Assembly: GCA_902611475.1 (NCBI GenBank)
Contig: CACLZW010000001.1
Coordinates: forward strand, 44,807-108,806
Origin: an uncultured Alphaproteobacteria bacterium
GTDB taxonomy: Bacteria; Pseudomonadota; Alphaproteobacteria; Rhodobacterales; Rhodobacteraceae
Direction of reading: 5' to 3'
Length of the DNA: 64,000 nucleotides
This document shows positions 8,064 to 21,379 of the stretch, piece by piece. A program made the translations under genes and the position numbers. Each line of letters starts with the position of its first letter. Position 1 is the stretch's first letter. Under the pieces are notes generated by a model, which was not told the origin of the DNA, made no database searches, and saw only the letters and a list, made by a program, of their open reading frames with translations.

Positions 8064-9197
8064 TCATAATGTTTGTTTCAAGATTTCCGTAAATCGCTCA
8101 AAGTCGTTAGTATTGTTCCACAAGTGAGGTGTAATTCTTAAATTGCCACCTCTCTCAGAGACAAATATTTTGTTTTCTGCCAAAGTTTCAAGAATGTTTT
8201 TCGGAGCTTTATAAGGTAGTTTTGCACCTATAAAATGAGGCCCTCTATTTTCGGGTCTTGGAATTTGCAACCCCAAATCGCTTAGCTTTTTACAGAGATT
8301 TAGATTAGAGTTATAGAGAGTGTTCTGAATGTTGGGTATACCCCATTTCTGTATTTGACGGAGTGCCTCTAGCACACCGGGAATAAGAGAAAAATTTGAT
8401 CTTTGCCCCATATCATACCTGATTGCTCCAGGTTCATAATTATCCTGGTAATTAACGAGATTTGCAAAATCCTTACTGTTTTTTCTTGTTATCCAGCCTT
8501 CTTCAAGTGGCTCCCCATTATGGAATTTAGGAGAAACATAAAGAAATCCAGTTGAGTAGGGGCCAAGCATCCATTTATAATTTGCTACAATTGCAAACGC
8601 AGGATCTATTTCACTAAGGTCTATATCAAAAGCGCCCGCGGATTGGGTAAGGTCAACAACGAGCTCAGTTTTACATTCCAAGCATTTTGCTTTCACTTTT
8701 TCTAAATCTATTAATGATCCATTTGTCCATAATACATTAGCAGTTGCGCAAACGCTAAAACGTTCATCTAAAGCGTCGATTATATGATCTGTGGCTGCTT
8801 CACCATCAGGGACATTTACGGTTTTGATCTCAGCACCTTTTTGCTTAGCTATACGCCGCCACGGATAGACATTAGATGGAAACTGATCAGATAGAACAAG
8901 TATTTTTGATCCCGCTGAAATCTGTAAATTTTTTGCGGCAGTCTGAACACCATAAGAAGCAGAGGGAATAATAGCTATATTGGTTCCAACTGTATGCATA
9001 AGGTTTGAAAATAAATTTCGAGCCTCTTCAATATCATCAAAAAAATTGCTTATCTTGAGTTTCCATGGATTGGCTTTTAAACGACTTCCACTATCTATGG
9101 CAGTGACAACGCTGTTCAAAAGGGGGGACATGTATGCAGTGTTTAAATATGCGACGTCTTCAGGAATATCAAAAAGATGTCTTTGACAAGGGATCAT
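8064..9197 (-). CDS. Class V aminotransferase / cysteine-desulfurase-like enzyme
   Basis: A 377-residue PLP enzyme of aminotransferase class V. The Schiff-base lysine is in VANYKWMLGPYSTGF and the cofactor-binding Asp in VVDLTQSAGA. The usual substrate-recognition Arg is plausibly in GGNLRITPHLWN. It lies 15 bases downstream of the class III aminotransferase on the same strand and is the last gene of the long minus-strand run that starts with cofD. Reaction unknown; members include isopenicillin-N epimerase-like and kynureninase-like enzymes as well as desulfurases. No Fe-S assembly genes are nearby, which argues against an IscS role. Confidence 0.82.
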   Translation of the reverse strand: MIPCQRHLFDIPEDVAYLNTAYMSPLLNSVVTAIDSGSRLKANPWKLKISNFFDDIEEARNLFSNLMHTVGTNIAIIPSASYGVQTAAKNLQISAGSKILVLSDQFPSNVYPWRRIAKQKGAEIKTVNVPDGEAATDHIIDALDERFSVCATANVLWTNGSLIDLEKVKAKCLECKTELVVDLTQSAGAFDIDLSEIDPAFAIVANYKWMLGPYSTGFLYVSPKFHNGEPLEEGWITRKNSKDFANLVNYQDNYEPGAIRYDMGQRSNFSLIPGVLEALRQIQKWGIPNIQNTLYNSNLNLCKKLSDLGLQIPRPENRGPHFIGAKLPYKAPKNILETLAENKIFVSERGGNLRITPHLWNNTNDFERFTEILKQTL

Positions 9198-9212: not shown

Positions 9213-10496
9213 CTAGGATATTGCTGCAATGCCCTCAGCCGCTTTTTTAAATGCGCTATCAGTTTTCTGAAGATCTTCTTCGGTAAGCGCAAGGTGTGTA
9301 TAAAGTTTGGCATCTGCTTTGAGTATTCCAAGTTCTCTAACTATTTGATTGAAAGTTTTTGAATATTTAGCCTTATTTTTCTTAGTATCACGGTAATTAA
9401 TAACAGGTGTTTCAGAAAAAATTATATCGAAAAGTGTTGGATCACCAACAATTTGAAACTCTATATTGTTACTCTTAAGATGTTTTGTAATGCTATCAAT
9501 TAAAAACTGCCCGTTTTCTCTTATCCTATTATAAGCACCATCTCTTCTAAGTATTTCCATCGTTTTTAAACCAGCTACTGCTGCCAATGGGTTTCCACTA
9601 AGGGTACCGATTTGGAAAGTAAACTTTTCTTCACCAACAATATTTTTATCAAAATGATTCATAATTTCTTTTTCACCGGCTATAGCCGCCAGAGGTAAGC
9701 CACCTCCAATGATCTTCCCAAGCGTGCATAAATCCGGCACTACGCCGTACAGTTCTTGTGCGCCGCCGTAGGCTAACCTAAAACCAGTTACTATTTCGTC
9801 AAAAATCAAAAGCGCACCAATTCTTTTTGTTTCAGCCCTTAGGTGCTCTAAAAATCCTCTTATTGGCGGAATTATTCTTTGAAGTGGTTCTACAATTACC
9901 CCAGCAATTTGATCTGAATACTCATTCATTATTTCCGTAGCTACTTGAGGATCGTTGAATGGTGCGACCAGGATATCATCTCTGACGGCTTCAGGTATTC
10001 CCGCTGAATCTGGCACTGCTAATGGAAAATTTACCATTTTGTTAGGTGCAAGACTCATCAATGAGTCTCCACTCATCCCATGATACCCTCCCTCAAACTT
10101 GAGGATTTTATTTCTACCTGTATGTGCTCTTGCCAATCGCATCGCATACATATCAGCTTCTCCGCCAGAGCTTACAAATCTAATCTGATCGGCGCATTTC
10201 ACTGCGCTACAAATTTCTTCAGCTAACTCAACTCCTTTTGAATTATTGGTGAAAAAAGTAAGGCCTTCACTGAGTTGTGCTCGAATAGCATCTAATACTT
10301 CTTCATTTCCATGGCCCAATATCATTGGCCCTGAACCGATTAAAAAATCTATATATTCTTTGTTATCTTCGTCCCATACTCGTGAACCTAAACCTCTTTT
10401 TAGACTGATATTAGGGTCGAAATTACCGAAACCAGCGCCTGGAAGTACCTTCTGAGCTCGGCTTTGCCACTCTTTTAGAGAAATATTCTTATTCAT
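9213..10496 (-). CDS. Class III aminotransferase, glutamate-1-semialdehyde-aminomutase-like
   Basis: A 427-residue PLP enzyme of fold type I. It has LIFDEIVTGFR (Asp binding the pyridine ring) and the lysine in CTLGKIIGGGLPLAA. It resembles GSA aminomutase most closely. A haem role is unlikely if the host uses the C4 pathway as most Alphaproteobacteria do, and the location after hydantoinase and carbamoylase genes suggests transamination of a beta-amino acid such as beta-alanine, which is inference. A strong hairpin at 10515-10540 separates it from the ABC binding-protein gene, so it may be transcribed at a lower or separate level. Confidence 0.85.
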   Translation of the reverse strand: MNKNISLKEWQSRAQKVLPGAGFGNFDPNISLKRGLGSRVWDEDNKEYIDFLIGSGPMILGHGNEEVLDAIRAQLSEGLTFFTNNSKGVELAEEICSAVKCADQIRFVSSGGEADMYAMRLARAHTGRNKILKFEGGYHGMSGDSLMSLAPNKMVNFPLAVPDSAGIPEAVRDDILVAPFNDPQVATEIMNEYSDQIAGVIVEPLQRIIPPIRGFLEHLRAETKRIGALLIFDEIVTGFRLAYGGAQELYGVVPDLCTLGKIIGGGLPLAAIAGEKEIMNHFDKNIVGEEKFTFQIGTLSGNPLAAVAGLKTMEILRRDGAYNRIRENGQFLIDSITKHLKSNNIEFQIVGDPTLFDIIFSETPVINYRDTKKNKAKYSKTFNQIVRELGILKADAKLYTHLALTEEDLQKTDSAFKKAAEGIAAIS

Positions 10497-10565: not shown

Positions 10566-11552
10566 CTAATTCAGCGCTGCGTTTGTAATTTCGTTAGTCC
10601 AAGCGCCTGATGGCTTCTTTGTTATTACAGGGTCAGAATCACCGGACATTAGCACCTTTACTGTTCTTTCGTAATCTGCAGGATCAAGTGACCCATTAGA
10701 TCCAGCTGTAAGTTTTGCAATTTCGCCCATCATTCTAACTTGATGCTTCTCGGTTTGCACACCCGCATCATCGTTATCTAGAATAATCATCGCGGCCTCT
10801 TTCGGGTTTGCTTCTGCATACTTCCAACCTTTCATAGATGCTCGAACAAATCTTACCATTTTATCTTTGAATGCAGCGTCGCTTAGGTTTTTCTCATGTA
10901 CATATAACCCATCTTCAAGAGTTGCGGCACCTTCCGACTGGTATTTGAAAACTGTTAGCTGTTCAGGAGAGTAACCAGCGTCTCTAACAACCCAATACTC
11001 ATTATACGACATAGTAGATACGCATGCAGCTTGGCCCTCTGTTAAAGGCTCAACACCCCAACCTTGTCTCAATACAGTCACTCCATTTGCACTACCGTCG
11101 GTTTTTAAGCCTAGTCGGCTCATCCAACTCAGGAATGGATATTCGTTTCCATAGAACCATACTCCCAACGTTTTCCCTTTAAGGTCAGCGGTAGTGTTTA
11201 CACCCATATCTTTTCTGCAAGTAAGCATCATACCAGAGCTTTTAAATGGTTGTGCTATGTTTACCAGTGGAAGACCTTTTTCTCGAGCTGCTAGAGCAGA
11301 AGGCATCCAGTCAACCATAACGTCGGCCCCACCACCTGCTAAAACTTGTGCTGGAGCAATATCTGGCCCACCTGGTTTAATAGTTACATCTAGGCCTTCA
11401 GCGTCGTAAAAGCCTTTATCTTTTGCTACATAATATCCAGCAAATTGAGCTTGAGTAACCCATTTTAACTGAATTGTGACCTTGTCAGCAGAAAAAACGG
11501 CTGATGCACTTAATATAAAAGCACAGGTCAATACAGATAGAATCTTCTTCAT
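10566..11552 (-). CDS. ABC transporter substrate-binding protein, NMT1/THI5-like
   Basis: A 328-residue periplasmic binding protein with an N-terminal signal peptide (MKKILSVLTCAFILSASAVFSA). The mature start VTIQLKWVTQAQFAGYYVAKDKGFYDAEGL is the hallmark of the NMT1/THI5/ThiY group. Relatives bind thiamine-pyrimidine precursors, other pyrimidines, sulfonates or nitriles. The next genes upstream on the strand are two permeases and an ATPase, so it completes an importer. Neighbouring hydantoinase and carbamoylase genes point to a cyclic amide or pyrimidine as cargo. Confidence 0.9.
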   Translation of the reverse strand: MKKILSVLTCAFILSASAVFSADKVTIQLKWVTQAQFAGYYVAKDKGFYDAEGLDVTIKPGGPDIAPAQVLAGGGADVMVDWMPSALAAREKGLPLVNIAQPFKSSGMMLTCRKDMGVNTTADLKGKTLGVWFYGNEYPFLSWMSRLGLKTDGSANGVTVLRQGWGVEPLTEGQAACVSTMSYNEYWVVRDAGYSPEQLTVFKYQSEGAATLEDGLYVHEKNLSDAAFKDKMVRFVRASMKGWKYAEANPKEAAMIILDNDDAGVQTEKHQVRMMGEIAKLTAGSNGSLDPADYERTVKVLMSGDSDPVITKKPSGAWTNEITNAALN

Positions 11553-11612
11553 TTTTTTCCCTCTTAGTAATCGTTTCTTTAATTGTTAATCAAATTCAAT
11601 TGATACGCAATG

Positions 11613-12455
11613 TTATTTTTGTTGACTAGGATGCCAAAAAGTTGTGCGTTTTTCAATTAACGCAATTAAGCCATAAAAAAGGCAGCCAGCAATTGCTGCA
11701 ACAAAAATTTCCGCCCATACCATGTCCAATGCAAATCGACCAACTTCCGAGGATATTCGAAATCCCATCCCCTTTATAGGAGATCCAAAAAACTCAGCAA
11801 CAATCGCCCCGATTAGTGCAAGGGTTGAGCATATTTTTAATCCATTAAAAATAAAGGGTAATGCAGATGGCAAACGAAGTTTAATTAGTGTTTGAGTGTA
11901 GGACGCGCTGTATGTTCTCATAAGGTCTTGTCGGCTAGGATCTATAAGTTCTAATCCTTGCACGCTATTTACAAGCATTGGAAAATAAACCATAACTACA
12001 ACAATAGCGCACTTTGATTGCCAATCGAACCCAAACCACATTACAAAAATTGGGGCCATACCCACAATTGGTAGCGCCGAAATAAAATTACCTAAAGGTA
12101 ATAGACCTCGTTTAAGAAAATTGAACTTATCAATCGCAATAGCTGTAAGAAAAGCTGAGCCACAACCCAATATGTAACCAGACAGAGCACCTTTTACCAA
12201 GGTCTGTACAAAATCAATCCACAGAATGTCTAAAGAACGAGAAAACTTTAAAGCTATTGCCGACGGAGCAGGTAACAAAATAGGATTTACTTGTAATCCA
12301 ATGACAGCTAACTCCCACATTAAGAGAATAACAATCCCGAATAAAGATGGGACTATAAATCTAGGCAAACTAGCGTCCTTGTAGTTGGATATTTTTATAT
12401 TAATCCACCATCCTCCAAGCCAAATAATGAAAAAAAGAATTAGAAAACTATTCAT
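11613..12455 (-). CDS. ABC transporter permease, SsuC/TauC type
   Basis: A 280-residue inner-membrane protein with about six hydrophobic segments. The ATPase-docking EAA-like loop is recognisable around SYTQTLIKLRLPSALPFIFNGLKI. Its start overlaps the stop of the second permease gene by four bases (12452-12455), indicating translational coupling. Together the two permeases form the channel of a heterodimeric importer served by the ATPase at 13336 and the binding protein at 10566. Confidence 0.9.
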   Translation of the reverse strand: MNSFLILFFIIWLGGWWINIKISNYKDASLPRFIVPSLFGIVILLMWELAVIGLQVNPILLPAPSAIALKFSRSLDILWIDFVQTLVKGALSGYILGCGSAFLTAIAIDKFNFLKRGLLPLGNFISALPIVGMAPIFVMWFGFDWQSKCAIVVVMVYFPMLVNSVQGLELIDPSRQDLMRTYSASYTQTLIKLRLPSALPFIFNGLKICSTLALIGAIVAEFFGSPIKGMGFRISSEVGRFALDMVWAEIFVAAIAGCLFYGLIALIEKRTTFWHPSQQK

Positions 12456-13321
12456 CTAATTATAGCCATTCTTTTAAGCGTGATTTTTTGTAAGAAATCT
12501 ATTGTAAAAACTAAAAATGCGGCAAGAAAAGCAGCAGCAAACAAAGCGCTCCAAATCATAATTGTCTGACCATAATAAGTGCCTGCTAGCATTCGCGCAC
12601 CCAAACCGGCAATAGCACCCGAAGGAAGTTCTCCAACTATGGCCCCGACCAGCGAAGCAGCAACTCCGACCTTTAATGAAGCAAAAAGAAAGGGTAAGGA
12701 AGAAGGAAACCTCAAATACCATAGGATTTCCCTTGAGGATGCAGACCATGTCTTCATTTGATCTAGCTGAATCTGGTCTGGTGATCTCAAACCTTTTACC
12801 ATTCCTACAACAACCGGAAAAAAAGAGAGATACATAGAAATAATTGCTTTTGGTAACAAACCTGTTACCCCAACCGAATTCATCACAACTATTATCATTG
12901 GTGCTATAGCAAGAATGGGTATAGTTTGACTTGCAATTACCCATGGCATAACACTAAGGTCCATTGCCTTGTTATGTACTATGCCTAAAGCTAGTAAAAT
13001 TCCGAGGAGTGTTCCCAAGAAAAATCCAGCCAAGGTTGCCTGCAAAGTAATCCATCCATGGTAAACAAGAGAACGCTTTGAACTGATTTTTTTAAAAAAA
13101 GTTGTATTTACCATTTCAGTAATTATCTGATGTGGGGTAGGGAGCTTTGGTTTTTTTAAACTCCAGCACTTTAGTATATGCTCACTGGCTGTAAGGTTCT
13201 TAAATTGTCTTGAAACCTTATCAGAGTTCATTGGAACCGCAACAAGGTACCAAAATACCCCAATTAAGATTACAATTGTAGAAACGGGAATAAATTTATT
13301 TGCAAAATAAGATGTTTTCAT
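12452..13321 (-). CDS. ABC transporter permease, SsuC/TauC type
   Basis: A 289-residue permease from the ATG at 13321; the track's TTG at 13330 sits one base after the AGGAGGG ribosome site, whereas the ATG is ten bases from it and is preferred. About six membrane segments and an EAA-type loop (ASSREILWYLRFPSSLPFLFASLKV) are present. An additional N-terminal soluble stretch of about 60 residues between the first and second helices is longer than in the partner permease. It follows the ATPase gene closely. Confidence 0.9.
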   Translation of the reverse strand: MKTSYFANKFIPVSTIVILIGVFWYLVAVPMNSDKVSRQFKNLTASEHILKCWSLKKPKLPTPHQIITEMVNTTFFKKISSKRSLVYHGWITLQATLAGFFLGTLLGILLALGIVHNKAMDLSVMPWVIASQTIPILAIAPMIIVVMNSVGVTGLLPKAIISMYLSFFPVVVGMVKGLRSPDQIQLDQMKTWSASSREILWYLRFPSSLPFLFASLKVGVAASLVGAIVGELPSGAIAGLGARMLAGTYYGQTIMIWSALFAAAFLAAFLVFTIDFLQKITLKRMAIIR

Positions 13322-13335
13322 TTCTATCAACCCTC

Positions 13336-14109
13336 CTAAAAAACATCTTCGGTTTGACCAGCCTTTAAGCCTTCTCTCACTCTTTGTGCAATTTTTATAA
13401 ACTCCCTACTATCTCTTATATTTAAATCACGTTTTTTTGGTAGTGTGCTTTCTATTATGTCAGTAATTCTTCCCGGTCTGGGAGACATAACAACAATTTT
13501 TGTTGATAAGAAAACTGCTTCTGGAATTGAGTGCGTCACAAAACATATAGTTTTTCTTGTTCTAGCCCATAAATTTAAAAGTTCTCCGTTCAATCTATCT
13601 CTAACAATTTCGTCCAGAGCTCCGAAAGGTTCATCCATTAATAGGATGTTGGCGTCAAATGCCAAAGCTCTCGCAATGGACGCCCGTTGTTGCATTCCTC
13701 CAGACAACTGCCAAGGGAACTTTTTTTCAAACCCGTTTAATTCTACTAAGTCTATTACTTTTCGTGTGCGGTCTTCTTTCTCACTGGTGGAGTATCCCAT
13801 GATTTCCAAGGGTAATTTAATGTTTCCACTCACCGATCTCCACGGATATAAACCTGCTGCCTGAAACACGTACCCATATTGTCTAGCTTTTCTAGCTTCA
13901 TCAGGTGTCATATTATTTACAGTCACCCGGCCTTCCGTAGGGGTCTCAAGTGCTGCAATTACTCTCAGAAGAGTTGTTTTCCCACATCCGGATGGTCCAA
14001 TAAAGGATACAAAATCTCCTTCATTGACTTCCATAGATACATTCTTCAAAGCATTTACAGGACCGTCATTTGTTTCAAAAGTCAGGTTAACATCAGATAC
14101 GCTTATCAT
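13336..14109 (-). CDS. ABC transporter ATP-binding protein, SsuB/TauB type
   Basis: A 257-residue nucleotide-binding subunit. Walker A is [11 protein letters not shown], the signature is [18 protein letters not shown], Walker B is [13 protein letters not shown] and the switch histidine is in [12 protein letters not shown]. It belongs to the nitrate/sulfonate/taurine/pyrimidine importer group. It lies 21 bases after the dihydropyrimidinase gene, which ties transport to ring-opening chemistry in one transcription unit. Confidence 0.93.
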
Positions 14110-14130: not shown

Positions 14131-15591
14131 TTATACTCCAGCTGGTATATTTAAAGGATCACGTTCTATTTTTCTTGGTGTGTTTAGAGCCTTCCACTTT
14201 GATACAGCACTATGCAATGCTGGGAAAGCAGGTCTTGGGACAAATCTACCCCTTCCTGGTTGTGGACTAGAGTTCTTGCCCCATGCCCATATTACATCTC
14301 CTCTAGATAATGTGTATCTTGGTTGTGCTGTGACTTTGAAGCCTTCGAAAACATTGTAGTCTAAAATTGATTTGTGGGTACTTGTTGAAATTGTTTTAGA
14401 AATCTTTGGGTCCCAAACAACAATATCTGCATCTGCGCCTTCTAAAATTGCTCCTTTTTTTGGATAAATGTTTAAAATTTTAGCAATATTACTTGAAGTA
14501 ATTGCGACAAACTCCTGTCGAGTTAAACGCCCCGTTTCTACGCCTTCTGTCCAAAGAACGGATAACCTTTCCTCAAGCCCGTTGCTACCATTTGGAATCT
14601 TAGTGAAGTCATTTACTCCCATTCTTTTTTGTTCCGTCGAAAACGCAGCATGGTCTGTAGCGACAACTTGTAGGGATCCAGACTGAAGACCAGCCCATAA
14701 TCCGTCCTGATGCGATTTGTCTCTAAAGGGAGGCGACATGACCCGTCTTGCAGCATGTTCCCAATCTTTATTAAAGTATTCGCTCTCATCAAGCGTTAGA
14801 AATTGAATAAGGGGTTCACCAAAAACTCTCATACCTTTTTGCCTAGCTCTTCTAATAGCCTCATGAGCCTGCTCACAAGATACATGAACAACATAAAGCG
14901 GTACTCCTGCGGCATCGGCTATCATTATCGCTCTATTAGCTGCCTCACCTTCTACTTCTGGAGGTCTTGAGTAAGCGTGCCCCTCAGGACCAGTTACTCC
15001 TTCTTGAAGGTATTTTTGTTGAAGCTCCGCAACAATGTCACCATTTTCGGCATGAACCATAGGTAGAGCGCCGATAGCTGCACATCTTTTAAAAGATGCA
15101 AACATTTCATCATCTTCAATCATCAGGGCTCCTTTATAAGCCATAAAATGTTTGAATGAATTTACTCCCATCTCAACTACCTTTGGCATATCATCAAAAA
15201 TCTGTTCAGACCAACCTGTAACTGCCATATGATAACCGATATCAGAACAAATTTGAGGCTCTGACTTTCTATGCCACTCCTTGACTGCATTTACCAAACT
15301 TCCATCCTCACCTGGAAGACAGAAGTCCACTAACATCGTTGTTCCGCCAACTGCAGCTGCCCAGGTACCTGTTTCGAAAGTCTCAGCGGCGGTAGTCCCC
15401 ATAAATGGCATCTCAAGGTGCGTATGTGGGTCTATTCCGCCGGGGATCACATAAGCGCCTTCGGCGTCAATGGTCTCATCCCCTTTTAGATTTTCCCCAA
15501 TCTGCTTGATCTTTTCATTTTCTATTAATATATCGGCTTTCCACTCTCTGTCCGCTGTTACAATGGTTCCACCTTTTATTACTTTAGTCAT
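14131..15591 (-). CDS. hydA: Dihydropyrimidinase / hydantoinase
   Basis: A 486-residue amidohydrolase that opens the ring of dihydropyrimidines or hydantoins to N-carbamoyl amino acids. The two-metal centre is complete: H56 and H58 in GGIDPHTHLEM, the lysine to be carboxylated (K153) in KHFMAYKGAL, H180 in MVHAENGD, H236 in YVVHVSCE and D313 in VATDHAAF. The substrate-binding stretch IPNGSNGLEERLS matches that of true dihydropyrimidinases. Length is typical. It is 13 bases downstream of the carbamoylase gene, which would act on its product. Confidence 0.93.
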   Translation of the reverse strand: MTKVIKGGTIVTADREWKADILIENEKIKQIGENLKGDETIDAEGAYVIPGGIDPHTHLEMPFMGTTAAETFETGTWAAAVGGTTMLVDFCLPGEDGSLVNAVKEWHRKSEPQICSDIGYHMAVTGWSEQIFDDMPKVVEMGVNSFKHFMAYKGALMIEDDEMFASFKRCAAIGALPMVHAENGDIVAELQQKYLQEGVTGPEGHAYSRPPEVEGEAANRAIMIADAAGVPLYVVHVSCEQAHEAIRRARQKGMRVFGEPLIQFLTLDESEYFNKDWEHAARRVMSPPFRDKSHQDGLWAGLQSGSLQVVATDHAAFSTEQKRMGVNDFTKIPNGSNGLEERLSVLWTEGVETGRLTRQEFVAITSSNIAKILNIYPKKGAILEGADADIVVWDPKISKTISTSTHKSILDYNVFEGFKVTAQPRYTLSRGDVIWAWGKNSSPQPGRGRFVPRPAFPALHSAVSKWKALNTPRKIERDPLNIPAGV

Positions 15592-15604: not shown

Positions 15605-16852
15605 TTAAACTATTTCTGCAGCTTCCAATACTGCATGCAATAAAACATCTGCACCTGCTGAAGCCCACTTTTCAAATATCTCTTCTGCCTCATTGTGGCT
15701 TAAACCGTCAACGCACGGGCACATTATCATAGCCGTTGGTGCTACTTTATTAATCCAACATGCGTCATGGCCTGCTCCCGATATAATATTTTTATGTGAA
15801 TACCCTAGTCTTTCAGCGGCTCTTCTAACTTTGTCAACACATCCTTCATCGAAAGTCACAGGGTCAAAATGTCCAACCTTTTCAAATTCCACAGTCAATT
15901 CCAAATCAGAAGCAATTTTTTTTGCTCCTTCATATAAGCGTTTTTCCATATCATCCTGGACGTCGAACGACGGAGATCTAAAATCTATAGTAAATACCAC
16001 TTTCCCAGGTATTATATTTCTACTATTAGGAAAAACATCGCATTGACCTATTCCACCAACTGCGGACGGCTGGTGACTCATAGCGATCTCTTGAACTAGC
16101 TCTGTAATTCTAGCCATACCTAGGCCGGCATTTTTACGCATCGGCATGGGGGTTGATCCCGTATGACTTTCCCGACCATTAAGAGTTACTTGTATCCAAT
16201 TTAGCCCTTGTCCATGGGTCACAACGCCAATATCTGTATTTTCAGCCTCTAATATTGGCCCTTGCTCTATGTGGAGTTCAAAAAAAGCATGCATTTTTCG
16301 TGACCCTACTTCTTCGTCACCAATCCATCCGATGCGCTTGATTTCTTCTCCAAATGTTTTCCCTGCTGCATCCTTTCTATCATAAGCCCATTGCAGTTCG
16401 TGTACTCCTGCAAAAACTCCTGATGCCATCATTGGAGGAGCAAATCGAGTTCCTTCTTCATTTGTAAAATTAACTACTACAATTGGATGCTTTGTTCTTA
16501 TATCAAGTTCATTAAGTGTTCTTATTATTTCTAACCCTCCCAGAACTCCTAAAACTCCATCATACTTACCCCCAGTTGGCTGGGTATCAAGATGGCTTCC
16601 AACATAAACAGGTAACGCATTTGGGTCTGTTCCTTCACGTCTAGCAAACATTGTTCCCATTTTGTCAACACCCATTTCCAAATTTTCCGTATCACACCAC
16701 TTTTGGAACAACTTTCGTCCTTCTGCGTCTTCGTCCGTGAGTGTTTGTCTGTTGTTGCCACCTGCGACACCAGGGCCTATTTTTGCCATCTCCATTAGAG
16801 AGTCCCAAAGACGAGAAGAGTTTATTTTTAAATTAGCTGCTGGTGTTGACAT
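15605..16852 (-). CDS. N-carbamoyl amidohydrolase (beta-ureidopropionase / allantoate amidohydrolase type)
   Basis: A 415-residue M20-family Zaf/AAH/carbamoylase enzyme. Metal ligands are visible in GSHLDTQPTGGKYDGVLG, NFTNEEGTRF, FELHIEQGP and GLSHNEAEE. It removes ammonia and CO2 from an N-carbamoyl or ureido acid; paired with the next gene, beta-ureidopropionase or N-carbamoyl-amino-acid hydrolase is the likely role. Allantoate amidohydrolase is an alternative, but no allantoinase-like or purine gene is present. The order carbamoylase then hydantoinase is typical of reductive pyrimidine degradation clusters. Confidence 0.9.
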   Translation of the reverse strand: MSTPAANLKINSSRLWDSLMEMAKIGPGVAGGNNRQTLTDEDAEGRKLFQKWCDTENLEMGVDKMGTMFARREGTDPNALPVYVGSHLDTQPTGGKYDGVLGVLGGLEIIRTLNELDIRTKHPIVVVNFTNEEGTRFAPPMMASGVFAGVHELQWAYDRKDAAGKTFGEEIKRIGWIGDEEVGSRKMHAFFELHIEQGPILEAENTDIGVVTHGQGLNWIQVTLNGRESHTGSTPMPMRKNAGLGMARITELVQEIAMSHQPSAVGGIGQCDVFPNSRNIIPGKVVFTIDFRSPSFDVQDDMEKRLYEGAKKIASDLELTVEFEKVGHFDPVTFDEGCVDKVRRAAERLGYSHKNIISGAGHDACWINKVAPTAMIMCPCVDGLSHNEAEEIFEKWASAGADVLLHAVLEAAEIV

Positions 16853-16871: not shown

Positions 16872-17783
16872 TCATATCTTCATTTTTGCATTATCACTAA
16901 TTAGCACTAATAATGCAAAGGCAATTATCAAGCCTCCAAAAATAATGTTTTTATTTGGAAAGCTTGAGTTAATAATTATTTCGCCTAAGGCCACCCAAAA
17001 AGGAACAGCATAGGTGTACGCCATTACTTTTGAAGCGCTTATTCTTTTCGCTGCAAACTGGATCAAGAAAAAAGTAAAAGCTGTCGCAATGGTTGCCAAG
17101 TAAAGTGTAGTTATCCAGACCAATGGAGATAGGTTAAGCCAATTTGTTTCAACAACATCATTAGTAAAAATTAAAATAAGTAGTAGAAATCCAGCACTTA
17201 AAGTTCCTAAGGTTTGCGATGCTGCATTTTCCCCTTTGTTTAAAACAGGGATCAAAATAGCATATAAAGCATGTCCAACACACCCCCAAAAAAAGAGTAG
17301 TTCGCCATAGCCTATTTTAAATGCTAAAACGTTTTCTAGATTGCCTTCAAAAATCACCCAAATTGCTCCCATTGCTCCAAGAAAAATTGCAAATAGCGCC
17401 CTGAGAGTTACTTTTTTCTTTAAAAAATATTCAAAAAAAAGTGCAATAAAAGGGGTGAGCGTAAAAACTACAGCTAGTGATAAAGAAGAAGCCGTTTTTA
17501 GTGCTTCGAACATTAATACAAAATAAATAACTATACTCAATCCGAGTATTAAAAATCGCCATGGTTTTTTGAAGTCCTCTTTCTTAAGGTTTTTTGAAAT
17601 AAATAATAATGTTCCCATTACAATTGCTCCTATTAAAAACCTTGCAGCTGTTATGGCTCCTGGCTCTATATCATTTGCTACCATGGCTCCTAAAATGTAG
17701 GATACTGATACACAAAGGGAGAAAAGGAGCATTGCCCCGTGTCCCCAAACCTCCGATGTCTCTATTGATATTTTTTTTATCAA
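16872..17783 (-). CDS. EamA/DMT family permease
   Basis: A 303-residue membrane protein with about ten helices in two EamA repeats; ITAARFLIGAIVMGTLLF and a Lys-rich linker after helix 4 are typical. The start is a TTG with no clear ribosome site, so it could begin later. It lies between the F420 genes and the carbamoylase, 19 bases before the latter and 98 bases after the LLM gene, so it is probably in the same transcript and might export or import an intermediate. Confidence 0.82.
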   Translation of the reverse strand: MIKKISIETSEVWGHGAMLLFSLCVSVSYILGAMVANDIEPGAITAARFLIGAIVMGTLLFISKNLKKEDFKKPWRFLILGLSIVIYFVLMFEALKTASSLSLAVVFTLTPFIALFFEYFLKKKVTLRALFAIFLGAMGAIWVIFEGNLENVLAFKIGYGELLFFWGCVGHALYAILIPVLNKGENAASQTLGTLSAGFLLLILIFTNDVVETNWLNLSPLVWITTLYLATIATAFTFFLIQFAAKRISASKVMAYTYAVPFWVALGEIIINSSFPNKNIIFGGLIIAFALLVLISDNAKMKI

Positions 17784-17881: not shown

Positions 17882-18883
17882 TTATGAAAAAGCTGGTATA
17901 ACATTTTCGCCGTATTCTGCGATAATTCTCTCTTCGTCTCCGCTATCCAGATAAATATTGAATTGGGTTACTCCAAGATCCTTTAATGTTTTAAGCTTTT
18001 TTACATGTTGATCAGCGGTTCCTAAAACACAAAATTCTTCAACTATTTCATCTGTGATAAATTCTAAATAAGGATTGTCGCTCTGGCCATGTTTAGAGTA
18101 ATCATAGCCGCGGCGATCTTTGATATAGTCCGTAAGGCTGTTGGGAATGTCTTTATTATCTTCACCATACTTCTCAACTATGTCGGCTACGTGATTTCCA
18201 ACCATTGCGGGAAACCACTTTACTTTCTCAATACTTTCTGCTCTATCTCCAAAGTAAGCAGGTGCAGCCACCATTACCTTGTAGTCTGACATATCACGTC
18301 CGTGTTCTTCTCCTGCTTTCACCGCTTGATCTCTTAGCCATTTGCAAACGGTTGGGGAAGCAATTTGAAGCACCAAACCATCTCCAACTTTTCCTGCAGA
18401 TGTAAGAGCCTTTGGCCCATATGCAGCTACCCAGACTGGCAAATCATATCCTTCTGCCCATGGAAATTGAATTGGGTTAGGAACATCACCATACTGGACT
18501 TCTTCTCCCTTAACCATTGCCTTTACTTTTAAAATAAATTCTTCCATTCGTGCTAGATTCGCAGGCTTCTTTCCCATTACGCGAACAGCGCTGTCTCCTC
18601 TTCCAACACCGATATCAAATCGTCCATTCGATTGTAGAGCTAGTGAGCCAAACATTGATGCCGCTAAAGACCAGTCTCTAGTGTTGGGATTGGTTACACA
18701 TGGTCCGAACCGCATTTTTTTTGTGTGCTCCATACACATAGCCATTTGAGCAAAGCTTTCTCTCCAAAGGATGTGGCTATCGTAGAACCAGCAATATGTG
18801 AATCCAGCGCTTTCAGCCAATCTAACCAGCGCTTTTGCTCGATCTGGTTGAACAAACCCTTTAAAACAAATTGCAAATTCCAT
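17882..18883 (-). CDS. LLM-class F420-dependent oxidoreductase
   Basis: A 333-residue TIM-barrel protein of the bacterial luciferase-like family, closest in feel to the methylene-tetrahydromethanopterin reductase (Mer) side: FAICFKGFVQPDRAKALV at the start, then RFGPCVTNPNTRDW, GRFDIGVGRGDSAVR and VWVAAYGPKAL. The track's TTG at 18916 overlaps the next gene; the ATG at 18883 follows an AAGGAGG ribosome site and is preferred. Upstream lie F420 reductase, cofE and cofD, so F420 is very likely its cofactor. I recall a proteobacterial LLM group of unknown function that fits this, but could not check. Its neighbours suggest it reduces a cyclic amide before ring opening. Confidence 0.88.
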   Translation of the reverse strand: MEFAICFKGFVQPDRAKALVRLAESAGFTYCWFYDSHILWRESFAQMAMCMEHTKKMRFGPCVTNPNTRDWSLAASMFGSLALQSNGRFDIGVGRGDSAVRVMGKKPANLARMEEFILKVKAMVKGEEVQYGDVPNPIQFPWAEGYDLPVWVAAYGPKALTSAGKVGDGLVLQIASPTVCKWLRDQAVKAGEEHGRDMSDYKVMVAAPAYFGDRAESIEKVKWFPAMVGNHVADIVEKYGEDNKDIPNSLTDYIKDRRGYDYSKHGQSDNPYLEFITDEIVEEFCVLGTADQHVKKLKTLKDLGVTQFNIYLDSGDEERIIAEYGENVIPAFS

Positions 18884-18897
18884 ATCTTCCTCCTTTT

Positions 18898-19566
18898 TTA
18901 TTCCTCCGGTGGCCAAATTTTTATTCCAGCATGTGAAAAAGGCACCGCTTTAGACATATTTATTCTTATCAATATAGGCGTTATAGCCTCTAAACATCTC
19001 GCTGATGTTGCATCACCAGCATTGTAAGCTTCGACTTCTAAGTTTTTTAACAACTTTATAGTATCTAACCTAGCATCCAAATTGTTTCCACATACCAAGA
19101 TATCACAATTAATTTTTTTCTCTAGGTGATTAAGTGTATTCGCGGAAACATTATGGAGGGCGCCAACTACTGGTATGTCAGGCCCTAATATGGCTTGGGC
19201 TGCTTCTGTAGCTGAGCCTTCAGGGGGCATAGCTACTTTTCTGGGGTTTCCGTCTTCCAATGGAACTACTATATCAACAAGTACCTTATCCGCTAGCATC
19301 CCTTTGATTTCACAAAGTGTATTGTTGTGACCACTCCAAGGTACTGAAAATATTACAAACTTGTCCGTGAATGCTATTGCTTCGCTATTCGAAAGCCCAG
19401 TTATTGACCCCTCGAGGTTTTGGTTTTTTGATGTTAAACTATCTGCAACTTCGATAGCTCTGGATTCATCACGTGATCCCAAAGCAACTTCAAAACCTGC
19501 CTTAGCAAATCTAAGGGCAAGGCCTTTACCTTGGGGCCCAGTTCCTCCAATAATTGATAATTTCAT
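18898..19566 (-). CDS. npdG: NADPH-dependent F420 reductase
   Basis: A 222-residue Rossmann-fold enzyme that transfers hydride between NADPH and F420. The dinucleotide loop [19 protein letters not shown] is followed by GSRDESRA, where Ser and Arg suit the NADP 2'-phosphate. Downstream [13 protein letters not shown] and CGNNLDA match the F420-contacting part of Fno-type proteins. Its start overlaps the cofE stop by four bases, and 14 bases separate it from the LLM gene it would supply with F420H2. Confidence 0.9.
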
Positions 19567-20351
19567 CTAAACATATCCTCATTTTGTTTCCGTAGAATGT
19601 CGTTTGCAGAGCCATATTTGCCACTCCAGCTAAGCCCTCTTAATAAAATTGCAGGACATTTCCCTGCTTTGCTCATAAGCAACCCCGAAGATGCTGCTAT
19701 TTCATCACAAAAAGCTGGTTCTGTCACGTATAATTGATTTCCCCAAGCATCTGTAGTTCCCTGCTCATTTTTTGTTGCTGGTATTCCTGCAACACCAATA
19801 GCGACATTGACCTGTCCAATCCTCCATGGCCTTCCAAAGGTATCACTCATGACAATCCCTAAATTCTCCAAGTCAAAGTAATTTTTTAGTTTATCTCTTA
19901 AAATTTGCACACTGAGGTCAGGATTTTTTGGAACGGTCACTACAGTTTCCTGACCCGTTATATTAGACTCGTCAACCCCCGCATTAGCGCAGATAAATCC
20001 AAGCTTATGCTGACAAATGAGAGTTCCTTCATTTTGTTCCTCTCTTTTAAAAGAGCGAATAATGCTATTACTTTCTTGTAATACGATTTCGACTTTTCTT
20101 GGGTCCTTGTTAAGGCTTTTCCCGAGTTCGATTGCTTTTCTGGAGGGAGAAATTTCTTTTAAATTTATTATACATCCCTCAGCTTTTGAAAAGATTTTAT
20201 GTGCTATACAAATAACGTCAAATTCTTTCAGACATATAGATGATTTGTTGAGAGCAGAAATCAGGATGTCACTAATGTTATCACCGTTTTCAATGTCAGG
20301 AATATGCGGAATTATATTTAAATTTAACGTTGAATTTGACATTTTCTTCAA
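19563..20351 (-). CDS. cofE: Coenzyme F420-0:L-glutamate ligase
   Basis: Adds gamma-linked glutamates to F420-0 using GTP. The 262-residue sequence carries the family blocks [27 protein letters not shown] and [21 protein letters not shown]. It is a stand-alone CofE, not fused to the nitroreductase-like domain found in actinobacterial FbiB. The track start is a TTG at 20351 with AAGG six bases upstream; an ATG three codons later (20342) is an alternative. It precedes the F420 reductase with a four-base overlap. Confidence 0.93.
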
Positions 20352-20437: not shown

Positions 20438-21379
20438 TCAATCAATAGGTTGATTGATTATGAACTTAGCTAACCGTCTCTTGTCTGCAAGAGAGGTCAT
20501 CAGTGTGTTCGTAAATATAGGTTTTTGATTTAGTAAAATAAATTGTTTCTTTAAGCCTATATCGGACCTATCGAGAATGAATGATTTGCAAATATCTTTA
20601 TAGAACTGCATACAAGAAAAAGAATTTGGCTTGAAACCTAATTGTTTAAGCATTTTTGATGCAGGACCTTTTACAGCCTTTCCTTGAATCAACGGACTTA
20701 TTGCTATCACTTTCTTATTATTTTTTTGAATTATGGATTTAAACCCAGGTATTTCAAGTATAGGTTTTATACTTACTAAAGGATTTGACGGAGCAATAAT
20801 TATAAGTTCAGCGTTACAAAGTGCTTTTTTTGCCTCTTTGGTGATTTTGGCTGATTTAATTCCGGTGTATTTTAGTTTGATAATTCTCGGTGAACACCGT
20901 TTTTTGACAAAATATTCCTGAAATGATATCCAACCCGACTTGGTTTGCACCTCTGTTCTAATCTTATCGTCAGTCGGTAAAATTATATCTGCCGTTACAC
21001 CCATTTTTTTAGCGATCTCATTGGCAATAATAGTCGGACGATGATCTTTTAATAGTCTGTGCTGTCTATATATATGAAGACCAAAGTCGAGATCACCTAA
21101 AGACATCCAGGTTTCTTCCCCTAATTTATTTAACATTGAGAGCGTCTTGTAATCGTCATTTTTTACTCCCCATCCTTGCTTTCGGTTCACCATGCCTGAA
21201 AGTGTATATGTTAAGGTATCTATATCTGGAGAAACCCTTAGCCCATGGAACTCATCATCATCTGCAATATTGCCAATGATAGCGAGATTTATATTTTTTA
21301 TGGAATTAAGTCCTTCTGCTAATTTTGCACCACCTACACCACCTGCTATAAGAACAATATTTTTGATAGATCTTTTCAT
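20438..21379 (-). CDS. cofD: 2-phospho-L-lactate transferase (F420 biosynthesis)
   Basis: A 313-residue CofD/FbiA enzyme that joins a phospholactyl-type (or phosphoenolpyruvyl) moiety to FO. Visible blocks are IVLIAGGVGGAKLAEGL at the start, then GNIADDDEFHGLRVSPDIDT, GDLDFGLHIYR and IIIAPSNPLVSIKPIL. It heads the minus-strand F420 run; 86 bases separate it from cofE. The other biosynthesis genes (FO synthase and CofC/FbiD) are not in the window. Divergent from it is the TPR gene, with a 161-base shared upstream region. Confidence 0.94.
   Translation of the reverse strand: MKRSIKNIVLIAGGVGGAKLAEGLNSIKNINLAIIGNIADDDEFHGLRVSPDIDTLTYTLSGMVNRKQGWGVKNDDYKTLSMLNKLGEETWMSLGDLDFGLHIYRQHRLLKDHRPTIIANEIAKKMGVTADIILPTDDKIRTEVQTKSGWISFQEYFVKKRCSPRIIKLKYTGIKSAKITKEAKKALCNAELIIIAPSNPLVSIKPILEIPGFKSIIQKNNKKVIAISPLIQGKAVKGPASKMLKQLGFKPNSFSCMQFYKDICKSFILDRSDIGLKKQFILLNQKPIFTNTLMTSLADKRRLAKFIINQPID

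Follow-up and report, generated by a model that had tools for sequence, protein, structure and literature searches.

Genes of the locus and the family of the LLM protein

The window, a stretch of 64,000 nucleotides from an uncultured Rhodobacteraceae bacterium, carries a run of minus-strand genes in which an LLM oxidoreductase gene lies between genes of F420 synthesis and reduction on one side and genes for a permease, two hydrolases and a transporter on the other. In the order of transcription, the features are as follows:

20438..21379, minus strand: cofD, phospholactate (or related) transferase of F420 synthesis (TIGR01819, 255.4 bits, slightly below the cut-off of 257.5)
19563..20351, minus strand: cofE, F420-0:glutamate ligase (TIGR01916, 223.2 bits, cut-off 180.7)
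18898..19566, minus strand: npdG, NADPH:F420 oxidoreductase, which supplies F420H2 (TIGR01915, 171.9 bits, cut-off 149.8)
18884..18897, minus strand: spacer of 14 bases between npdG and the LLM gene, with an AGGAGG ribosome-binding site (from the sequence)
17882..18883, minus strand: TIGR03842 LLM oxidoreductase, proposed F420H2-dependent uracil/thymine reductase (dihydropyrimidine-forming) (TIGR03842 match, AlphaFold2 model, preTA position)
16872..17783, minus strand: EamA-family permease (PF00892)
15605..16852, minus strand: M20 Zn-dependent N-carbamoyl-beta-alanine amidohydrolase (beta-ureidopropionase) (nearest structures 8apz/8aq0, 8c46)
14131..15591, minus strand: dihydropyrimidinase (DHPase) (TIGR02033, 592.3 bits, cut-off 393; nearest structures 4tqt, 3dc8)
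13336..14109, minus strand: ABC transporter ATPase (74–76% identical to the ATPase of PreTA operons L162 and L164)
12452..13330, minus strand: ABC transporter permease (position and order as in PreTA operons)
11613..12455, minus strand: ABC transporter permease (position and order as in PreTA operons)
10566..11552, minus strand: NMT1/THI5-like substrate-binding protein (PF09084; 64–74% identical to PreTA-operon copies)
9213..10496, minus strand: class III aminotransferase (PF00202; nearest to GSA aminomutases)
8064..9197, minus strand: class V PLP enzyme, the last gene of the same-strand run (PF00266)

The LLM frame starts with an ATG at 18883 and its stop ends at 17882 on the minus strand (333 aa); the plus-strand frame over 17882–18883 is riddled with stops. 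The spacer that separates it from npdG reads aaaaggaggaagat, in which the AGGAGG match is perfect, and cofE and npdG share a 4-base overlap. The preliminary description had placed the LLM gene 14 bases from its F420 reductase and one permease away from the ring-opening enzymes, and both statements are exact: npdG ends 14 bases upstream, and the EamA permease is followed by the Zn-hydrolase and the DHPase. The window cofD is orthologous to the cofD genes of complete cof operons, and among the structures nearest to the Zn-hydrolase, 8c46 is an 'N-carbamoyl-beta-alanine amidohydrolase'. The ligands of the NMT1/THI5-like binding protein are probably pyrimidines, and the class III aminotransferase would possibly convert beta-alanine to malonate semialdehyde; the class V PLP gene is kept beside it across the window's genus. 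Furthermore, we observed that the ABC block (10566–14109; ATPase, two permeases and binding protein) is only 58–70% identical in some genomes of the genus (L045, L046, L050, L053), the same genomes in which the DHPase is 98–99% and the aminotransferase 96–97% identical to the window copies. The block seems to have been exchanged as one unit within the genus.

In an NCBIfam profile search, the LLM protein scored 498.9 bits against TIGR03842 (cut-off 295.45) and is therefore a member of this family (F420_CPS_4043), a 'hypoth_equivalog' without an assigned function. Its scores against the Mer models fell far short of their cut-offs (123.5 bits against 276 and 116 bits against 348.7), and the further models matched after Mer were other F420 LLM groups. 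PF00296 is its sole Pfam content. The solved structures closest to it by sequence are those of the F420-dependent Mer (phmmer 1e-25), and an AlphaFold2 model built from 52 relatives (pLDDT 85.5, pTM 0.88) gave the same picture in Foldseek, with Mer first (2e-23, TM about 0.8) and F420-dependent alcohol and glucose-6-phosphate dehydrogenases next; Mer, Adf, FGD2 and FGD1 stood on top and most flavin monooxygenases ranked lower. The view that this is a Mer-like LLM enzyme thus held in both fold and sequence. Taken with the F420 synthesis and reduction genes of the operon, family and fold support the use of F420 rather than FMN.

The protein shares the GPxVTNP and GxGD stretches with Mer, but Mer has a Glu at position 6 (the deposited mutant 8qq8 is E6Q), whereas the equivalent residue in the LLM family is Cys in 31 of 52 members and Thr in the other 21, never Glu. 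This replacement and the scores below the Mer cut-offs led us to reject Mer itself as the identity of the protein. In addition, a conserved segment at about residues 223–270 (WFxxMVGNHVAD...GYDY..HG) finds no match in Mer, whose sequence it replaces. This segment may form a substrate lid; the likeliest lid region, at about 221–280, is where the model is least reliable (pLDDT 51–73).

Could the LLM protein instead resemble RutA, as a pyrimidine monooxygenase that depends on FMN and opens the ring by oxidation? RutA belongs to the same superfamily (PF00296) and acts on uracil, which the preliminary description had taken as an argument for pyrimidine binding. RutA, however, depends on FMN and oxygen, opens the ring itself and has no detectable subfamily relation to the LLM protein. 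The latter did not match the RutA model (TIGR03612), its nearest folds are F420 enzymes, no RutA was among its top 50 Foldseek matches, and F420 genes stand in its operon. Nor was a close RutA or RutB found in the LLM neighborhoods, and a DHPase would be pointless after oxidative opening. With no model match and the wrong partner genes, we rejected this reading, which is extremely improbable. Since RutA is not found among the families of the LLM protein, the argument from RutA carries little weight.

Exchange of PreTA for the F420 cassette

PreTA (PydA) is a two-subunit FMN/FAD/Fe-S enzyme that uses NAD(P)H, whereas the LLM protein is an unrelated single TIM-barrel chain and a proposed user of F420H2; in the family search only PF00296 was found in it, and no homology to PreA. 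The two have in common their genomic place, the downstream enzymes, the transporter and the regulator family. If the LLM enzyme replaces dihydropyrimidine dehydrogenase (DPD), then PreA should be missing where the LLM gene is present, and the LLM gene should lie in its place. By profile search, no PreA exceeded the cut-off in the 23 genomes from the window's genus and G054, whereas 34 of the 38 remaining genera of Rhodobacteraceae had one above it (Fisher p 5e-13, uncorrected for relatedness). The genomes of the genus are single-cell or metagenome assemblies, 58–91% complete, so it is the group as a whole, rather than any single genome, that carries the evidence for absence. A hidden DPD in the genus was rejected, as the 23 genomes gave just weak matches of the dihydroorotate dehydrogenase/ferredoxin type. 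Across 50 LLM-bearing genomes, 35 had no PreA over the cut-off, and 15 also carried PreTA.

What stands at the position of the LLM gene where PreTA is present? We compared 19 PreA regions: LLM-free genera supplied 14 of them, and the other 5 are from genomes with both PreA and an LLM gene. In all except one (L166, with the Zn-hydrolase alone nearby), preT-preA was followed, in many cases via EamA or an aminotransferase, by the Zn-hydrolase and the DHPase, and the ABC transporter of the window type was present wherever the region extended far enough. The window order is cofD-cofE-npdG-LLM-EamA-Zn-DHPase-ABC-SBP. The LLM locus L095 and the PreTA locus L164 have a common order of EamA, a reversed RutR-type gene, Zn-hydrolase, DHPase, ABC transporter and SBP. 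The window EamA is 44% identical to the EamA that lies between preA and the Zn-hydrolase in L164, the Zn-hydrolase is 71–77% identical to PreTA-linked copies, and the DHPase is 84% identical to those of L162/L164. Because PreTA operons match it downstream, the operon of the window is the usual uracil operon of the family, its head exchanged. The presence of a DHPase and an N-carbamoyl-beta-alanine hydrolase orthologous to the PreTA-operon copies fits a role in reductive pyrimidine degradation. The preliminary description had proposed an F420H2-dependent LLM enzyme for the C5-C6 bond in place of DPD, and both the absence of PreA and the preTA position support it.

RutR relatives (PF08362) occurred at all 19 PreTA loci and at 38 of the best 80 of 217 LLM loci; there was none within the window. 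E. coli RutR is a uracil sensor, and the RutR-type protein of Leisingera is 42% identical to it.

The histories of the hydrolases argue in the same direction. In the DHPase tree, LLM-linked and PreTA-linked enzymes are interleaved, and branches with good support require at least 6 partner changes. The DHPases of L063 (LLM, no PreA) and L162 (PreTA) are 94% identical, and those of L095 and L124 (LLM, no PreA) are 86–88% identical to the PreTA-linked ones of L167/L177. The Zn-hydrolase tree has the same outline with weaker support and just 2 forced switches. That the reductase was repeatedly exchanged upstream of a single set of hydrolases is most readily explained if LLM and PreTA do the same reaction. 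Moreover, a DHPase was found in all 50 LLM-bearing genomes tested, exactly one in each of the 35 without PreA and two in 14 of the 15 with PreA (Fisher p 1.6e-11, uncorrected for relatedness). Shimia G502 alone combines PreA with a single DHPase.

F420 supply and the proposed reaction

The window lacks cofG, cofH and cofC, but these genes lie outside it on the same contig (G000:C1:21590-24547), about 39 kb from the LLM gene. By gene content, F420 synthesis is therefore complete in the window's own genome, and the possibility of an incomplete pathway was rejected. Gene order varies within the genus: the window's subgroup has this separation, but in G009 and G021, cofG, cofH and cofC share one operon with cofD, cofE, npdG and the LLM gene. 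The cofH of G021 (L038; G021:C2:64009-65047) is split over two frames, with two TAA inside the matched stretch, which is a frameshift or an assembly error. Within Rhodobacteraceae, cofE was present in 15 of 16 LLM genomes but not in any of the 38 genera that lack the LLM gene; in the sole LLM genome without it (G020), the LLM gene lies 689 bases from a contig end. The window's genome has a second LLM gene (L002, G000:C3:23134-24048), so the TIGR03842 protein may not be the only enzyme that F420 serves. This second gene scored under the threshold of all NCBIfam LLM models listed, the best being TIGR03619 at 104 bits.

Gene content and order, the family and fold of the protein, its substitution for PreTA and the accompanying F420 synthesis set are all observed, and on this basis we propose that the LLM protein would very probably act as a non-homologous, F420H2-dependent replacement of dihydropyrimidine dehydrogenase (PreTA/PydA). 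Its substrate, direction, stereochemistry and catalytic residues are inferred. Uracil, and probably thymine too, would be imported via the ABC transporter (an NCS1 symporter in other lineages), and NpdG would reduce F420 to F420H2 with NADPH. The LLM enzyme would then transfer a hydride from C5 of F420H2 to the C5=C6 bond of the pyrimidine, the neighboring carbon would be protonated, and 5,6-dihydrouracil would be formed. The DHPase would open the dihydrouracil ring, the M20 Zn-hydrolase would release beta-alanine, CO2 and ammonia, and the aminotransferase would take beta-alanine onward. This order of enzymes follows the known pathway, with the LLM step placed by its substitution for PreTA.

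The preliminary description had considered cyclic imides broadly, including hydantoins. Ring opening of hydantoins needs no prior reduction, which makes them unlikely substrates of the LLM enzyme; its natural substrate is most likely uracil/thymine.

Does the LLM enzyme work in the reductive direction and at this step? Characterized F420 LLM dehydrogenases, Adf and FGD, are among its fold matches, and the protein might thus act elsewhere, in malonate semialdehyde or beta-alanine metabolism, or in reverse as an F420-reducing dehydrogenase. Such a role, however, would leave the absence of PreTA at LLM sites and the one DHPase per reductase unexplained, and NpdG already provides F420H2. Several LLM clusters also contain pntAB, whose product makes NADPH; its position beside the cassettes fits the NADPH demand of an NpdG-driven F420 reduction and supports the reductive direction. 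We consider another step or the reverse direction very unlikely, and reduction of the pyrimidine remains our preferred reading.

Distribution of the family and the purpose of F420

A scan of 85,462 species genomes gave 217 LLM relatives, and the best 80 of the 217 loci were analyzed. These come from Rhodobacterales, Pseudovibrio, Cohaesibacter, Roseibium, SAR116 and some Gammaproteobacteria (Marinomonas, Marinobacterium, a Vibrio). Among these 80 loci, all from other genomes, npdG stands immediately before the LLM gene in 73, cofE is present in 70 and cofG with cofH in 57, all of these counts being depressed by contig ends. Of the 44 loci whose flanks are complete, 27 have a close DHPase no more than 10 kb from the LLM gene, where chance would give about 0.5% on the assumption of one DHPase per 4 Mb. 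The LLM-npdG-DHPase arrangement is not due to chance. When a close Zn-hydrolase or a pathway transporter within 10 kb is also counted, the number rises to 32 of 44, and the remaining 12 have none of the three at that distance, which speaks against the proposed role. The preliminary description had asked whether the family always accompanies a hydantoinase; a DHPase was present somewhere in every LLM genome sampled.

On Leisingera plasmids, the LLM gene (a TIGR03842 member) ends a cofG-H-D-C-E-npdG-LLM arm that is followed by a RutR-type regulator, and the divergent arm carries an NCS1 symporter, DHPase, Zn-hydrolase, class III aminotransferase and pntBA. Paracoccus denitrificans (L084), in which no PreA was found, similarly has NCS1-DHPase-Zn divergent from a cofG-H-D-C-E-npdG-LLM cassette, with a RutR-type gene present, and the Paracoccus alcaliphilus protein is TIGR03842 by the annotation of its record. 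The evidence across phyla consists of one locus, on a Streptomyces megaplasmid, where a TIGR03842 gene (590 bits, about 44% identical) immediately follows a DHPase gene, with no cof genes adjacent. It is likely that TIGR03842 represents a new, non-homologous class of F420H2-dependent dihydropyrimidine dehydrogenases, whose cassette is transferred whole among Proteobacteria, takes over from PreTA repeatedly and explains the F420 of marine Alphaproteobacteria and Paracoccus denitrificans.

Is uracil the right substrate everywhere? The same chemistry could serve another unsaturated pyrimidine or ureide (thymine only, 5-hydroxymethyluracil or a modified base), the product of which would also be opened by the DHPase. 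PreTA is kept in the 15 LLM genomes mentioned above, 14 of which have the second DHPase, and where both reductases are present the LLM set may act on another substrate or on a wider range. The cluster transporter is of the NCS1 and not the ABC type in Leisingera, Paracoccus denitrificans and Pseudovibrio, and an F420 LLM enzyme of Chloroflexota uric-acid clusters has been proposed, from gene context, as a yanthine reductase (PMC12507026). That candidate resembles ours by gene context in that an F420 LLM gene takes the place of a PreA-like pyrimidine-ring reductase, but it belongs to another pathway and another phylum, and its role is itself a proposal (PMC12507026). On the other hand, no RutA was found by profile search in the window's own genome, and neither PreTA nor RutA in its genus, which nevertheless retains a transporter, DHPase and Zn-hydrolase of the PreTA-operon type. 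The ordinary substrate of the PreTA operon is therefore the simplest choice, and a different one is unlikely. We thus retain uracil, probably with thymine, as the substrate.

A ferredoxin-dependent variant of PydA has been described from gene context and assay (PMC7332683). In our search of the open, non-subscription literature, we found no paper linking F420 or TIGR03842 to uracil reduction or pyrimidine degradation. A 2021 review listed the purpose of F420 in Proteobacteria as an unanswered question and, since just traces of F420 had been detected in Paracoccus denitrificans, called its role there 'minor or niche-specific' (PMC8498797). If the proposed role is correct, F420 in these bacteria would be made for pyrimidine catabolism, a specific answer to the question of the review, and the traces in P. 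denitrificans may reflect a lack of induction. It would also give a function to the orphan family TIGR03842, add another chemistry for the first step in uracil breakdown, and allow the annotation gap 'DHPase without DPD' to be filled.

In Roseibium (L090, L098), the TIGR03842 LLM gene has no npdG directly ahead of it and is divergent from a more remote cof set, which in L090 includes another LLM-like gene. The Poseidonocella sedimentorum genome (G541) carries an LLM gene and, on contig C14, three RutA genes over the cut-off. A Caballeronia plasmid (L029:12001-15982) has a 128-residue LLM remnant, a Zn-hydrolase and a partial pntB, and is a decayed copy of the LLM system in a betaproteobacterium. 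Finally, L081, from a record labeled Nocardioides marinus, has a Leisingera-like cassette (cofG 93%, RutR-type gene 92%), and this genome is probably mislabeled or contaminated.
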